DNA of 64,000 bases from positions 502,172 through 566,171 of the forward strand of contig NZ_LN852694.1 in assembly GCF_001244545.1 (NCBI RefSeq), given 5' to 3'. Origin of the DNA: Candidatus Stoquefichus sp. SB1 (GTDB lineage: Bacteria > Bacillota_I > Bacilli_A > Erysipelotrichales > Coprobacillaceae). A program made the position numbers and the translations under genes. The notes below the pieces were generated by a model. The model was not told the DNA's origin. It did not search any database and was given only the letters and a program-made list of their open reading frames with translations. Below are positions 1,725 to 53,290 of the stretch, in pieces (position 1 is the first letter of the stretch; each line of letters begins with the position of its first letter).

Positions 1725-2696
1725 ATGATACCTATTCATATCCTTGAACAATTGGTATGTTTTACCCAGGAAGAAATGGATTCTTTGCAGGGTATAGATA
1801 ATATTGATAAAAGTATCTTTTCTGATGAGACTTCTCATGTTATTGATTATCATCAGCTTTTAAAAAAAGATCAAATGTTTTCTGTGAGGAAGCATGCTAG
1901 ATTTTGTCAATATCCAACTCATCGTCATAATTATATTGAATTGATGTATGTTTATAGTGGCCAGATGACACACCATATCAATCAACAAGACATAACAATA
2001 AGAACTGGGGAACTTCTTTTATTAAATCAAAATATTGAACATGCAATAGATTATTGTGATGAAAATGATATCATTTTTAACTTTATTATCAGACCAGAAT
2101 TTTTATCCTTTTTATCAACAATGATTGAAAATGAAAATGTTGTTTCAAGGTTTATTTTTGATGCTTTATATTCGTATGATAATGACGGAGAATACCTTGT
2201 TTTTAAGGTTCAAGATCATCAAAAAGTTAAAGATGCTATTGAATCAATTATTATGAATCTTTATGAACCTCAACTTTATAATGACATTGAACTTAAACTT
2301 TTGGTTGGACTCCTTTTAACTGAATTGATGAATCATCCTGAGAAGATAGAAAGTTATACTGGTGATAGTTATGAAAAAATATTAAGCAGCACAATCTTGA
2401 AATATATAGTGACAAATTATCAAACAGGAAGTCTTTATGATTTATCGCAAAAGATTCATCAACCTAATTATAAAATCTGTAAAGTCATAAAAAATCAAAC
2501 AGGTCAAACATTTACCAAACTTTTACAGCAAGAGAAATTAAAAGTAGCAGAAAAGTTATTAAAGACTACGCAATTATCTATGGAAGAAGTAATTCAAGAA
2601 GTTGGGTATGAAAATATATCTTATTTTTATAGATTGTTTAAAAAGAAATATAAAATGACTCCTTTAATGTATAGAGAAAAATCTAGAGAAATTTAG
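1725..2696 (+). CDS. AraC-family transcriptional regulator
   Basis: A 323-residue regulator with an N-terminal cupin-like sugar-sensing region (HRHNYIELMYVYSG, about residues 66-80) and a C-terminal double helix-turn-helix of AraC/XylS type (about residues 220-320, ending in the typical VGYENISYFYRLFKKKYKMTP). The ATG follows a good GGAGG ribosome site. It sits directly after the GH78 gene and upstream of rhaBAD, so control of rhamnoside uptake or breakdown is the simplest guess; the inducer is not shown by the sequence. Known rhamnose regulators RhaR and RhaS are of this family, but they are not specific enough relatives to justify that symbol here. Confidence 0.85.
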   Translation: MIPIHILEQLVCFTQEEMDSLQGIDNIDKSIFSDETSHVIDYHQLLKKDQMFSVRKHARFCQYPTHRHNYIELMYVYSGQMTHHINQQDITIRTGELLLLNQNIEHAIDYCDENDIIFNFIIRPEFLSFLSTMIENENVVSRFIFDALYSYDNDGEYLVFKVQDHQKVKDAIESIIMNLYEPQLYNDIELKLLVGLLLTELMNHPEKIESYTGDSYEKILSSTILKYIVTNYQTGSLYDLSQKIHQPNYKICKVIKNQTGQTFTKLLQQEKLKVAEKLLKTTQLSMEEVIQEVGYENISYFYRLFKKKYKMTPLMYREKSREI

Positions 2697-2854: not shown

Positions 2855-3853
2855 ATGCATAGAACGAAAAAAAAGAAGAAAATGAAACGTCAGGATGCTT
2901 TATTAAAAGTTTACTTTCATGATCCTTATAGATTTGCAGATTTTATTAATGTTATTCTTTTTAATGGGCAAGAAATATTGGAACCTACGATGCTTGAGGA
3001 TTATGACAGTGATACATCAACATATGTTGAAACCCATCAGATAGGTGTCATAGGTATTAATCGAAATCGTGATATTATTAAAAAAGTCAATATTGATGGA
3101 AAAATGGGTTTAATCGCTATTGAAAATCAGAGTCATGTAGATCGAAGAATGTTATATCGTATTAGAGAGTATGACAGTTATACTTGTTTAAATCAATATT
3201 ATTATCAACAGTCTCAATCTAAGTCAAGAAAAAAATTATTACATATTATGACTTTAGTGCTTTATTTTGGATCAAAGCCATGGAAAGGAGCCAGGACATT
3301 TAATGAGTTAGCCTTACAGCCACCATCATCACTGGAGTCATTTATGAATTATCCTATGGTTCCTATTGTTTGTGTAACAGATTTAGATTATCACATGTTT
3401 CATCATTATGATAATCTCAATTTGATACGAGGATTACAGATTATTTATCGGTTTAACGGAAATATAGAAATGTTAAAGGGAATGATTGTCAGTAAAATTG
3501 TTGCCAGTTTATTAGCATTATTTTCGGATGATGAGGAATTATTTGAAATGATACAAATTCAATCACAGGAGGAAATCAATATGTGTGAGTCAATCAGAAA
3601 GTTTAAGGAAGACAACATTCGTCAAGGAAAAATAGAGGGACGTATGGAAGGACGCATCGAAGGCCATATAGAAGGACGCATCGAAGGTCAAGTAGAGTTG
3701 CTCATTGAAATACTTCAATATAAATTGAAGTATTTATCACAAGAAACAATATTCAAATTGCAAAACAGTAGTGAACAACAGCTAAAAGAGTTATCAAAAC
3801 ATATTTTTGAGATTCAAGATGAGAAAGAAGTTACACAAATACTTGTAAGTTAA
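2855..3853 (+). CDS. Rpn family PD-(D/E)XK nuclease ('transposase'-type)
   Basis: A 332-residue protein of the Rpn/PD-(D/E)XK nuclease family, often annotated as recombination-promoting nuclease or nuclease-family transposase. The nuclease core is in the N-terminal half; GLIAIENQSHVD (about residue 92) carries the E-x-Q catalytic signature. The C-terminus has a run of EGR/EGQ repeats (about residues 257-275) leading into a short helical tail. The ATG at 2855 follows AAGGAGG. An internal AGGAGG (3567-3572) stands 8 bases before in-frame ATG 3581, so a C-terminal fragment of 90 residues may also be made. In E. coli, related rpn genes encode such intragenic small antitoxins. The 3' part is duplicated just downstream. 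Function (genome rearrangement or phage defence) is inferred from the family. Confidence 0.8.
   Translation: MHRTKKKKKMKRQDALLKVYFHDPYRFADFINVILFNGQEILEPTMLEDYDSDTSTYVETHQIGVIGINRNRDIIKKVNIDGKMGLIAIENQSHVDRRMLYRIREYDSYTCLNQYYYQQSQSKSRKKLLHIMTLVLYFGSKPWKGARTFNELALQPPSSLESFMNYPMVPIVCVTDLDYHMFHHYDNLNLIRGLQIIYRFNGNIEMLKGMIVSKIVASLLALFSDDEELFEMIQIQSQEEINMCESIRKFKEDNIRQGKIEGRMEGRIEGHIEGRIEGQVELLIEILQYKLKYLSQETIFKLQNSSEQQLKELSKHIFEIQDEKEVTQILVS
3581..3853 (+). CDS. possible intragenic small protein from the Rpn 3' end
   Basis: Same frame as the full-length Rpn gene, beginning at Met243. An ideal AGGAGG lies 8 bases upstream, better than chance inside a coding region. The product would be 90 residues: a charged helix, the EGR repeats, and the C-terminal helical tail. 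In enterobacterial Rpn systems the C-terminal part translated from an internal start acts as antitoxin to the full nuclease; here that role is inferred from layout and from the fact that the duplicated copy downstream starts at exactly the same Met. Confidence 0.45.
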   Translation: MCESIRKFKEDNIRQGKIEGRMEGRIEGHIEGRIEGQVELLIEILQYKLKYLSQETIFKLQNSSEQQLKELSKHIFEIQDEKEVTQILVS

Positions 3854-3922
3854 CCAAATAGAGATTTTTGTGATGAGAAATGATTAAAAAATATTGAAAT
3901 TCAATTACTAGGAGAAATCAGT

Positions 3923-4174
3923 ATGTGTGAATCAATCAGAAAGTTTAAAGAAGACAATATTCGTCAAGGAAAAATAGAGGGACGTATGGAAGGACGTATT
4001 GAAGGTCAAGTAGAGTTATTCATTGAAATACTTCAATATAAATTGAAGTATTTATCACAAGAGACAATATTTAAATTACAAAGCATTAATGAGCAACAGT
4101 TAAAAGAATTATTAAAACATATTTTTGAAATACAAAATGAAAAAGAGCTCGTAAACGTACTTGTGAGCTTATAA
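3923..4174 (+). CDS. free-standing duplicate of the Rpn C-terminal fragment
   Basis: An 83-residue ORF nearly identical to the C-terminal 90 residues of the preceding Rpn gene, lacking eight residues of the EGR repeat. Homology starts upstream of the ATG and includes the ribosome site (AGGAGA, 7 bases before ATG 3923), so the copy carries its own translation signals. Many differences from the parent copy are silent or conservative, which suggests that the protein has been maintained. It contains no nuclease core. It could be a stand-alone antitoxin/modulator of the Rpn nuclease, or simply the remains of a tandem duplication or of a second, deleted Rpn gene. Confidence 0.6.
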   Translation: MCESIRKFKEDNIRQGKIEGRMEGRIEGQVELFIEILQYKLKYLSQETIFKLQSINEQQLKELLKHIFEIQNEKELVNVLVSL

Positions 4175-4204: not shown

Positions 4205-4232
4205 TTGACATTAAAGATGATTTTGATATAAT
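4205..4232 (+). promoter_or_regulatory. promoter for the MATE riboswitch transcript
   Basis: TTGACA at 4205-4210 and TATAAT at 4227-4232 with a 16-base spacer, a near-consensus vegetative promoter. The start of transcription would fall near 4239, at the 5' edge of the structured leader. Confidence 0.7.
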
Positions 4233-4238
4233 AATTTT

Positions 4239-4325
4239 TGCTCGGAGGGCAAGTCATTCAATAAGAAATGATAAGCTGGACAAGGCGACAGATTGGAATA
4301 TCTGTTTCTTGTTCGGCTTTTTTTG
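4239..4325 (+). ncRNA. guanidine-IV (mepA)-like riboswitch with attenuator
   Basis: The leader of the MATE gene. A small GC/GC-closed hairpin with loop containing CGGAGG (4238-4252) and a second hairpin TCATT/AATGA (4254-4271) come first. The segment AAGCTGGACAAG (4273-4284) then pairs fully with CTTGTTCGGCTT (4308-4319), forming a terminator with a run of seven T. The terminator's left arm overlaps the segment next to the two hairpins, as expected for an ON switch. Association with a MATE exporter and this sequence style match the mepA motif, known as guanidine-IV. I recalled the motif from memory, so the ligand is tentative; attenuation is directly visible. Confidence 0.6.
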
Positions 4326-4342
4326 TGAAGGAGGAAGAGAAT

Positions 4343-5686
4343 ATGAATTTTACAAGTGGCAAGATTCGTTCACTTTATTTTAAGTATTTGACTGCAGCCT
4401 TTGGAAGTGCTTTAATGACTTCTGTTTATTCTATTGTAGATATGGCTATGGTGGGACAATATCAAGGACCAGAGGGAACTGCTGCTTTAGCTGTTGTTGC
4501 ACCAATATGGAATATTATATATAGCTTAGGGCTTCTTATGGGGATTGGCGGTTCTGTTATTTTAAGTACACTTAAAGGAAAAGCAGATAAAAAATTAGAG
4601 AATGAAAATGAATATTTTACTGTTGCAGTTATGGGTTCTCTTTTTCTGGCTGCTATCATGTGGATTGTAATTGTCTTTTTTGATAGAGAGTTATTGATGT
4701 TTTTTGGAGCCCAAGGTCAACTTTTATCGCTAGCAGAAACTTATCTTATTCCGATTAAGTTTGTCATTCCAAGTTTTTTATTTGTTCAGATGTTAGCTGC
4801 CTTTTTACGAAATGATAAAAATCCAACATTAGCAACAATTGGTGTTCTATCTGGTGGAATATTTAATATGATTGGTGATTACATTTTTATATTTGTGTTT
4901 GATATGGGTATTTATGGTGGTGGTTTAGCCACTGCAATGGGTTCAGTGATTTCTTGTCTTGTCATGTTAACACATTTTTTATCAACTCGAAATTCATTGT
5001 CTTTGATGAAACCAACCAAGATATTTTATCAGTTCAATAGAGTTGTAATTACAGGCTTTTCAACATTCTTTATTGATATTGCAATGGGAATTTTAACGAT
5101 TTTATTTAATCGTCAGATAATGAAATATTTAGGAACAAATGCACTATCAGTCTATGGAATTATTGTCAATGTGAGTACTTTTGTGCAGTGTTGTGCTTAT
5201 AGTGTTGGACAAGCATCACAACCGATTATATCTGTTAACTATGGAGCCAAATTAGGTCATCGTATTAAAGAAACATTAAAATATGCACTTTATTCAGTTA
5301 TGTTTTTTAGTCTCTTTTGGACATTATTATCATTGTTAGTACCGAATATATATATTTATATTTTTATGCATCCAACAAAAGAAATTTTAAAGATAGCACC
5401 AACTATTATTAGATGCTATGCCTTATCTTTTCTCTTGTTGCCATTCAATATCTTTTCTACTTATTATTTTCAAGCTTTATTAAAACCAAAATCTTCATTC
5501 ATTGTTTCTGTATCAAGAGGGATGATTATCAGTGGCATACTGATTTATATGTTACCACTTATTCAAGCAAATTATCTCTGGTTAACAATGCCAATAACAG
5601 AATTCATTGTTGCTATTTATGCGATTATGCTAATGATTCGTTATACTCGTCAATTACCAAATGGTCATGAAACAATAGATGTATAG
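4343..5686 (+). CDS. MATE family efflux transporter
   Basis: A 447-residue, 12-helix multidrug/toxin exporter of the MATE family, expected to work by Na+ or H+ antiport. The N-terminal part shows the family's Y-S-I-V-D-M-A-M-V-G-Q segment in helix 1, and the two halves are visible as repeated blocks of membrane segments. The start at 4343 has AAGGAGG 8-9 bases upstream and begins MNFTSGKIRSL, better than the longer frame that would start inside the terminator. It is a single gene behind the attenuator, so it probably exports the compound sensed by that leader; guanidine is the leading guess. Confidence 0.88.
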   Translation: MNFTSGKIRSLYFKYLTAAFGSALMTSVYSIVDMAMVGQYQGPEGTAALAVVAPIWNIIYSLGLLMGIGGSVILSTLKGKADKKLENENEYFTVAVMGSLFLAAIMWIVIVFFDRELLMFFGAQGQLLSLAETYLIPIKFVIPSFLFVQMLAAFLRNDKNPTLATIGVLSGGIFNMIGDYIFIFVFDMGIYGGGLATAMGSVISCLVMLTHFLSTRNSLSLMKPTKIFYQFNRVVITGFSTFFIDIAMGILTILFNRQIMKYLGTNALSVYGIIVNVSTFVQCCAYSVGQASQPIISVNYGAKLGHRIKETLKYALYSVMFFSLFWTLLSLLVPNIYIYIFMHPTKEILKIAPTIIRCYALSFLLLPFNIFSTYYFQALLKPKSSFIVSVSRGMIISGILIYMLPLIQANYLWLTMPITEFIVAIYAIMLMIRYTRQLPNGHETIDV

Positions 5687-14638: not shown

Positions 14639-14679
14639 AAAAACATTCCTCCATTTAAATTATTTATTATTGAATGAAG

Positions 14680-14814
14680 TTATGCCTGATGATATTTGTT
14701 TAATGATTACTCATTATTTTTGCTCATCGTTTAGGTAGCATCATACCTCCAGATCATCCGCCGAATCTTTCGATAAATCTGGTCCTCGTCAACTCATAAA
14801 GAGTCCTGGCGCTT
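14680..14814 (-). ncRNA. glmS ribozyme
   Basis: On the minus strand, just 5' of glmS. The core is clear: AGCGCCAGGACT at the 5' side (cleavage expected between 14813 and 14812), AGTTGACGAGGA, TTATCGA, TTCGGCGGATGATC, and the P4 hairpin GGTATGATGCTACC. The ribozyme uses glucosamine 6-phosphate as cofactor to cut its own mRNA. The 3' border is approximate. Confidence 0.92.
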
Positions 14815-14970
14815 CTTTTTTTTATTTCCTTCTTCAATAACGATTACCATTATACATGAAACTGACTTCTATTTTTTTCATATTTTAAAAATAGAAGATA
14901 TATTAATATATGTTATTAAAAATGCTTGTGTGAAGATAAATCAAACTTTTTTAAAAAAGTTTGATTAAAA

Positions 14971-21532: not shown

Positions 21533-21730
21533 TTATTTCGTCCTCCCTTAATTCTCCTTTATTATAGCATTAAAAATAAAAAAAACTAGGAAAAAATACG
21601 TGAAAAATATAACATATCGATATATCATTTTGATGAATATATCTATTATTTTAAGGATGAAAAAAATGACTATCTTTATCAATTGATAGAAAATCTTGAA
21701 ATTTATAGAAAAAGGATTATAATAGTCGTT

Positions 21731-21812
21731 GAGCCAGGGGTGCTTTTGCTGAGAGAGGTTTTAGCCTCATCCCTTATCATCTGAACTGGGTAATGCCAGC
21801 GTAGAGAGTGCA
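21731..21812 (+). ncRNA. TPP riboswitch (THI box)
   Basis: Contains the conserved GGGGTGC, GCTGAGAG, the CATCTGAACTGGGTAATGCC and AGCGTAGAGA segments in the right order. Binds thiamine diphosphate. A terminator hairpin (21828-21859) follows, so thiamine shortage should allow read-through to thiT. Confidence 0.93.
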
Positions 21813-21827
21813 AATAACGTTATTTTT

Positions 21828-26374: not shown

Positions 26375-26454
26375 GATAAGAAAAGTATTGAAATAATAAA
26401 GAAAAAGTGTTAATAATAATGTTACAAGTAATGATTTGAGAACGTATTTTTAAT

Positions 26455-26655
26455 GATATTTGAAAGCGACTCTTGGATGGTGTAAGCAAGAGAAATATCT
26501 AAAATATGGAACACTCAATGAACTGGGTAGGAGAAAATAAAGTAGACTATCCCGTAAGACTGCGTTAGAGTCTAAGAGTGCATAATCTTTGATTATGAAT
26601 AAGGATGGTACCGCGATATCAGTCGTTCCTTTGATAGGAATGGCTTTTTTTATTG
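26455..26655 (+). ncRNA. T-box leader of asnS
   Basis: The T-box sequence AAGGATGGTACCGCG is at 26601-26615, followed by a terminator (AGTCGTTCCT / AGGAATGGCT, about 26620-26644, then T run). Stem I elements GCGACTCTTGGATGGTG are at 26465-26481, and the probable specifier codon is AAC (26510-26512) before the CTC-type segment, matching asparagine. Uncharged tRNA-Asn should promote read-through. Confidence 0.9.
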
Positions 26656-53114: not shown

Positions 53115-53290
53115 CAGAAACGATTTAATTCGTTATGATGTATCAGTAAATGAAAAGTAGTGGAAAGAAGAAGTGCCTACTTCTCGCCTGAGTGTCAGTA
53201 ACGCTAGGCTAACGTCACTAAGATATCATATCTTAATGTCAATATGTGGGTGCTTTATGTACTCACTTTTTATTTGTACTACAAAATTTA
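53115..53290 (+). ncRNA. L20-type leader of infC-rpmI-rplT
   Basis: A 175-base leader rich in inverted repeats (for example AGATATCATATCTTA and GTAGTGG...), ending in GTGGGTGC / GTACTCAC with a T run (about 53247-53273) just before the infC ribosome site. In Firmicutes this leader binds ribosomal protein L20 and ends transcription early. Assigned by position and the attenuator, not by a full structure match. Confidence 0.7.

Follow-up and report, generated by a model that had tools for sequence, protein, structure and literature searches.

The Rpn proteins of Escherichia coli carry antitoxins, termed RpnS, that are encoded within the rpn genes themselves (Zhong et al. 2023, PMC10327210). RpnS is also found as a separate downstream gene, namely ypaA after rpnE and a second rpnCS, and the free rpnS copies are reported to have independent origins, each deriving from its own neighbour (PMC10327210). 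RpnCL is blocked only by an RpnCS of equal four-residue repeat number (PMC10327210, Fig. 4D), a rule shown for one protein, RpnC, with one added repeat, and one that may not apply to the RpnL considered here. A comparison drawn by the same authors is with the TAEL repeats of the Type I restriction enzymes EcoR124I/II, in which the number of a four-residue repeat is a specificity ruler (PMC10327210); unlike the case of those enzymes, no restriction-modification gene was found at the locus described below, and the likeness is one of analogy only. A fusion of rpnE and ypaA has already been mentioned by Zhong et al., and phage defence among Rpn proteins is known only for RpnP2 (PMC10327210).

Here, an arrangement of this kind is described from Candidatus Stoquefichus sp. 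SB1, within a window of 64,000 nucleotides (contig NZ_LN852694.1, positions 502,172 to 566,171) that is the whole stretch of DNA analysed. The locus is a predicted RpnL/RpnS system with an extra, free-standing RpnS paralogue, arranged as in E. coli rpnE-ypaA (Table 1); in kind, a nuclease accompanied by a free RpnS is already described, for rpnE-ypaA and for rpnC with its second rpnCS. As in RpnE/YpaA, an intragenic RpnS is followed by a free RpnS copied from the same gene, with a different repeat number (7/7 rpnE/ypaA alleles read). The window locus differs in belonging to another Rpn subfamily, in a Firmicute, in retaining a 38-nt upstream coding vestige and in having a free copy that is 8 residues shorter; a further difference is that rpnE of K-12 is annotated as inactive. 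The rpnC system likewise has a free second copy downstream, of unequal repeat number in 5/5 alleles, with a length difference that is not always a multiple of four, and the rpnE and rpnC alleles are related and do not represent independent events. In the free RpnC copies that were read (L157-L160, L162), RRETRQTLAQ stands where the nested start has MMTLAQ, so that the double Met is gone, whereas the window copy keeps its start Met. Such free RpnC copies must start elsewhere or not at all.

The rpnL gene and its nested rpnS

Table 1. Features of the rpnL locus and its neighbours (positions within the window)
Feature	Position	Strand	Description
AraC-type regulator gene	1725-2696		upstream neighbour, named from sequence
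rpnL	2855..3853	+	full-length Rpn-type PD-(D/E)XK nuclease, 332 aa; core RDII...IAIENQ (R72, D73, E90, Q92)
Shine-Dalgarno AGGAGG of nested start	3567..3572	+	8 bases before in-frame ATG 3581
Nested rpnS	3581..3853	+	90 aa; helix of dimerisation type carrying EGR repeats of four residues, followed by small helices (DUF4351-like)
Decayed rpnL coding vestige	3871..3908	+	matches 3529-3566; frame broken by TGA
Shine-Dalgarno-like AGGAGA of free copy	3910..3915	+	before ATG 3923, at the place corresponding to AGGAGG
Free-standing rpnS copy	3923..4174	+	83 aa; two four-residue repeats fewer than nested copy
MATE-type transporter gene	start near 4343		downstream neighbour, named from sequence

The N-terminal domain of RpnL scores 21.4 bits against PF04754 (YhgA/Transposase_31), barely over the cut-off of 21, and an NCBIfam search gave no match to an Rpn family. 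The R-D and E-x-Q core is shared by relatives: across 14 of them, R72 and E90 are invariant and D73 and Q92 almost invariant, and, going by the fold, D73, E90 and Q92 would be the catalytic residues. The predicted structure consists of a nuclease-like body and a 49-residue C-terminal helix that starts at the nested Met, and a fold search returned weak, non-significant matches, many of them to nucleases of the PD-(D/E)XK fold. For this locus, toxicity or nuclease activity of RpnL and its neutralisation by RpnS are predicted.

The AGGAGG noted in a preliminary description of this DNA lies exactly as given ahead of the in-frame ATG. A Shine-Dalgarno match of at least 6 nt occurs at the nested Met in 16/18 related rpnL genes and at 4/171 other in-frame ATGs, a comparison that somewhat favours the nested class because the best candidate near the C-terminus was chosen for each gene. 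Such counts indicate that the internal start is more than chance.

The neighbours in the window look metabolic or transport-related, and PADLOC matched neither of the two Rpn genes nor the regulator gene ahead of them; phage defence at this locus is plausible by family. Ahead of the MATE-type transporter gene, the stretch 4205-4335 comprises a perfect sigma-70 type promoter (TTGACA-16-TATAAT, 4205-4232) and, behind it, a strongly folding leader (z-score -5.1) that includes a stem resembling a terminator and a U-run; this leader has no Rfam family match and is possibly an undescribed regulatory element. The window also contains ordinary riboregulators that exceed Rfam cut-offs, namely a T-box leader (26422-26633), a glmS ribozyme (14678-14824), an L20 leader (53159-53280) and a TPP riboswitch (21726-21825).

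Searches at the level of class and phylum place the window Rpn subfamily almost entirely within its family, and few Rpn genes of other types occur in the sample of the phylum. A single-protein scan of genome contigs recovered no orthologues; a search with a close alignment gave matches mainly in the sister genome and family members, the other genome of the genus in the comparison being Candidatus Stoquefichus massiliensis. When the sister genome was consulted for an empty site, the genes flanking the locus had their best matches on separate contigs. No phage-borne copies were found in phage records or viral contigs, and a plasmid search gave no match at E 1e-8.

Origin of the free copy and selection on both copies

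Aligned in register, the free and nested 3' segments agree at 82% of positions over 157 and 211 nt, with the 8-codon gap in the EGR repeat that had been noticed at the outset as eight missing residues. Homology had been thought to begin just upstream of the ribosome site, with the same Met as first codon; the shared Met stands, and the homology in fact extends back to about 3871, where a 38-nt vestige matches rpnL at 29/38 positions, a match equalled by 0/20,000 random stretches. Within the duplicated segment, an open frame exists only from the ribosome site onward. The free copy lies 69 nt behind rpnL on the same strand, with no terminator-like site found between them. It resembles the DUF4351 domain (PF14261), which is known from stand-alone proteins, over its length, at a score of 23.4 bits that is under the curated cut-off of 25. 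Its predicted structure (pLDDT 85) has a 39-residue first helix (3-41) and three short helices, and a fold search of the RpnS model against solved structures gave no significant match, leaving a likeness to the RpnAS crystal structure unsupported.

Nested and free copies differ at 19/46.2 synonymous and 12/199.8 non-synonymous sites (dN/dS 0.10, Fisher p = 1e-8; dS 0.6), which bears out the early impression that the differences are often silent. Neutral drift along the free branch would push dN/dS towards 0.5 even with the nested branch fully conserved; the value found is too low for a neutral free branch. In other nested/free pairs dN/dS ranges from 0.06 to 0.54. The start signals of the free copy have been retained while the sequence just upstream has decayed. 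These observations indicate that both copies are under purifying selection and that the free copy is not debris; the proposal that the nested antitoxin part was copied out as its own gene is thereby upheld, there being a 3' copy with its own ribosome site and constraint on both copies. The alternative of a mere tail left by a deleted second full-length gene with no conservation is right in part as to origin, given the vestige at 3871-3908, and is rejected as to the rest, conservation extending from the ribosome site onward and no further upstream.

Constraint is uneven along the protein. Across seven pairs, pN is 0.009 in the first helix and 0.068 in the tail (p = 4e-8), and synonymous divergence is also lower in the helix than in the tail (p = 0.008), as expected if the helix gets exchanged. 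The residues of the first helix are thus almost frozen, yet its length differs by whole four-residue repeats.

Repeat number is decoupled between nested and free copies

Among related genes, the distance separating the nested Met and the conserved tail is, with few exceptions, 14, 18, 22, 26, 30, 34, 38, 42 or 50 residues, a ladder of step 4 from which it follows that length changes by whole repeats. The search of relatives for stand-alone copies beside Rpn genes, suggested in the preliminary description, yielded 17 nested/free pairs outside E. coli, taken from one genome per species and limited to pairs with a well-aligning free copy, two pairs with strongly diverged copies being left out. 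Lengths were unequal in 13/17 pairs and equal in 4/17. Expressed as free minus nested length in residues, the difference is -8 (two repeats) for the window pair and +4 for a second such pair found in G000, the genome of the window (contig 4, 169-170 kb); in the other genomes the values are -8, 0, -16 and -8 (G004), -4, -8 and -4 (G029), -8 (G014), +4 with a second free copy at +12 (G019), 0 (G002), +8 with further copies at +8 and +4 (G052), 0 (G080), 0 and +4 (G089) and -8 (G060). The rate of equal lengths is about that expected for unlinked lengths, and our claim is one of decoupling between nested and free lengths rather than of active avoidance of matches. Nor do paralogues lend support to an active avoidance of equal lengths: in G013, two pairs among seven similar paralogues share a length, and the mismatch fits plain decoupling. 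The mismatch between nested and free copies does not figure as known in the main text of Zhong et al. (PMC10327210), and may be mentioned in the supplement.

The first alternative to be weighed against this background is that the free copy acts as the cognate antitoxin of the RpnL beside it, either as the working one or as an extra dose, the locus forming a two-gene toxin-antitoxin unit. Purifying selection on both copies, the identity of the first-helix residues and the placement of the free gene (its own ribosome site, the same strand, a short gap with no terminator-like site found) are all in keeping with such a role. Decoupled lengths, on the other hand, are evidence against a matched antitoxin: repeat number is off by two here and unequal in most pairs, for RpnC a difference of one repeat abolishes neutralisation (PMC10327210), and with the nested antitoxin intact an unmatched second one would be superfluous. 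The free copy is thus probably not the present cognate antitoxin of its neighbour, and this alternative seems unlikely. This was the view of the preliminary description, which proposed a conversion of the nested system into a two-gene unit; such a step is not supported, the nested copy and start being intact and the repeat number of the free copy different.

A second alternative is orthogonal immunity, whereby a free RpnS, single or in an array, would neutralise other RpnL versions, paralogous or incoming, in the manner of orphan immunity genes. Several rpnL paralogues are present per genome, arrays of the form L-S-S and L-S-S-S exist with mostly different lengths, and G004 has one locus with a free copy that equals the nested copy of another locus in helix length and in 95% of residues. 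In the window genome, however, 0 free copies match another rpnL in length and sequence together, and incoming rpn genes would bring their own nested antitoxin, leaving this alternative with a low probability in our estimation. The arrays comprise two or three free RpnS behind one rpnL, with repeat numbers mostly different, as at L140 and L042 (both minus strand). At the second pair of the window genome (L006), another remnant of that upstream segment lies past the stop of the free RpnS, as though a third copy had once been present.

Exchange between nested and free copies

In E. coli, ypaA is absent from 24/60 evenly spaced records, and the rpnE alleles that have no ypaA carry a ypaA-type tail in 5/5 cases read. 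Fused alleles are scattered in several clades among two-gene alleles in a tree of the rpnE body, and in one fused allele the rpnL body shows no difference over 729 nt from its counterpart in a two-gene strain; together, the scatter and the identical body make repeated fusion likelier than repeated gain. By our reading, fusion would carry over the tail and repeat number of the free copy, or generate a new number through crossing over inside the repeats.

Two loci of G004 have a common junction ahead of the free copy (18 sites) and therefore descend from one L-S pair. Within the free copy, 0 two-against-two sites follow that history and 8 contradict it. In the window genome, the tail of the third rpnL (contig 5) is a patchwork, part free-like and part nested-like, and in the fourth (contig 6) two RpnS units are fused in frame. 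This tandem (G000 contig 6, L005 1198-2289, minus strand) has a Shine-Dalgarno-like site before each internal Met. Taken together, the sequence patterns indicate that nested and free copies recombine in relatives.

A third alternative regards the free copies as by-products, tandem duplication of the 3' end recurring via the repeats or the nuclease, the copies then drifting and being lost, with apparent constraint reflecting short survival. Some free copies are indeed broken (the G014 copy has a stop inside), ypaA of K-12 carries a pseudogene annotation, and fusion in E. coli removes free copies. Against this stand the dS of 0.6 with dN/dS of 0.10 at the window locus, which imply long survival under selection, and the decay of the upstream vestige but not of the gene; a pure by-product must be regarded as improbable.

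A possible spare module for the specificity helix

The reading preferred here, held tentatively and at somewhat less than an even chance, is that the free RpnS serves as a spare C-terminal module of shifted length, able to switch the specificity helix of the nuclease by recombining with it. The nested start would keep the antitoxin matched to RpnL at all times, because RpnL and RpnS are read from the same DNA. The free gene would encode an RpnS of another ruler length that, by the published rule, should not neutralise the adjacent RpnL. By crossing over with the nested copy, or by gene conversion between the two, the tail of RpnL and its repeat number would be rewritten along with the nested antitoxin, and, were the free copy expressed, an antitoxin close to the new version might already be in the cell at the moment of the switch. 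Several points temper such a scheme. The window copies are long diverged (dS 0.6), with recent exchange not seen there; lengths are equal in 4/17 pairs outside E. coli; the repeat number varies so much that the mismatch may be drift alone; and fused alleles, having lost the free copy, would make switching one-way unless duplication recurs.

Whether the scheme extends to the Rpn family at large is more doubtful. In that wider form, which we consider rather unlikely, free rpnS genes would be expressed switching cassettes through which nuclease specificity and its built-in antitoxin are changed in one step and without self-poisoning, and mismatch in length with the neighbour would be general in the family. 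The reason for free rpnS copies, and how repeat number changes, are both questions left open by Zhong et al. (PMC10327210). Recurrent mismatch and tail exchange suggest a testable answer to both, namely that the free copy provides raw material for altering the specificity helix. If true, this would be a toxin-antitoxin system holding in reserve an antitoxin to a form that its toxin has yet to take.
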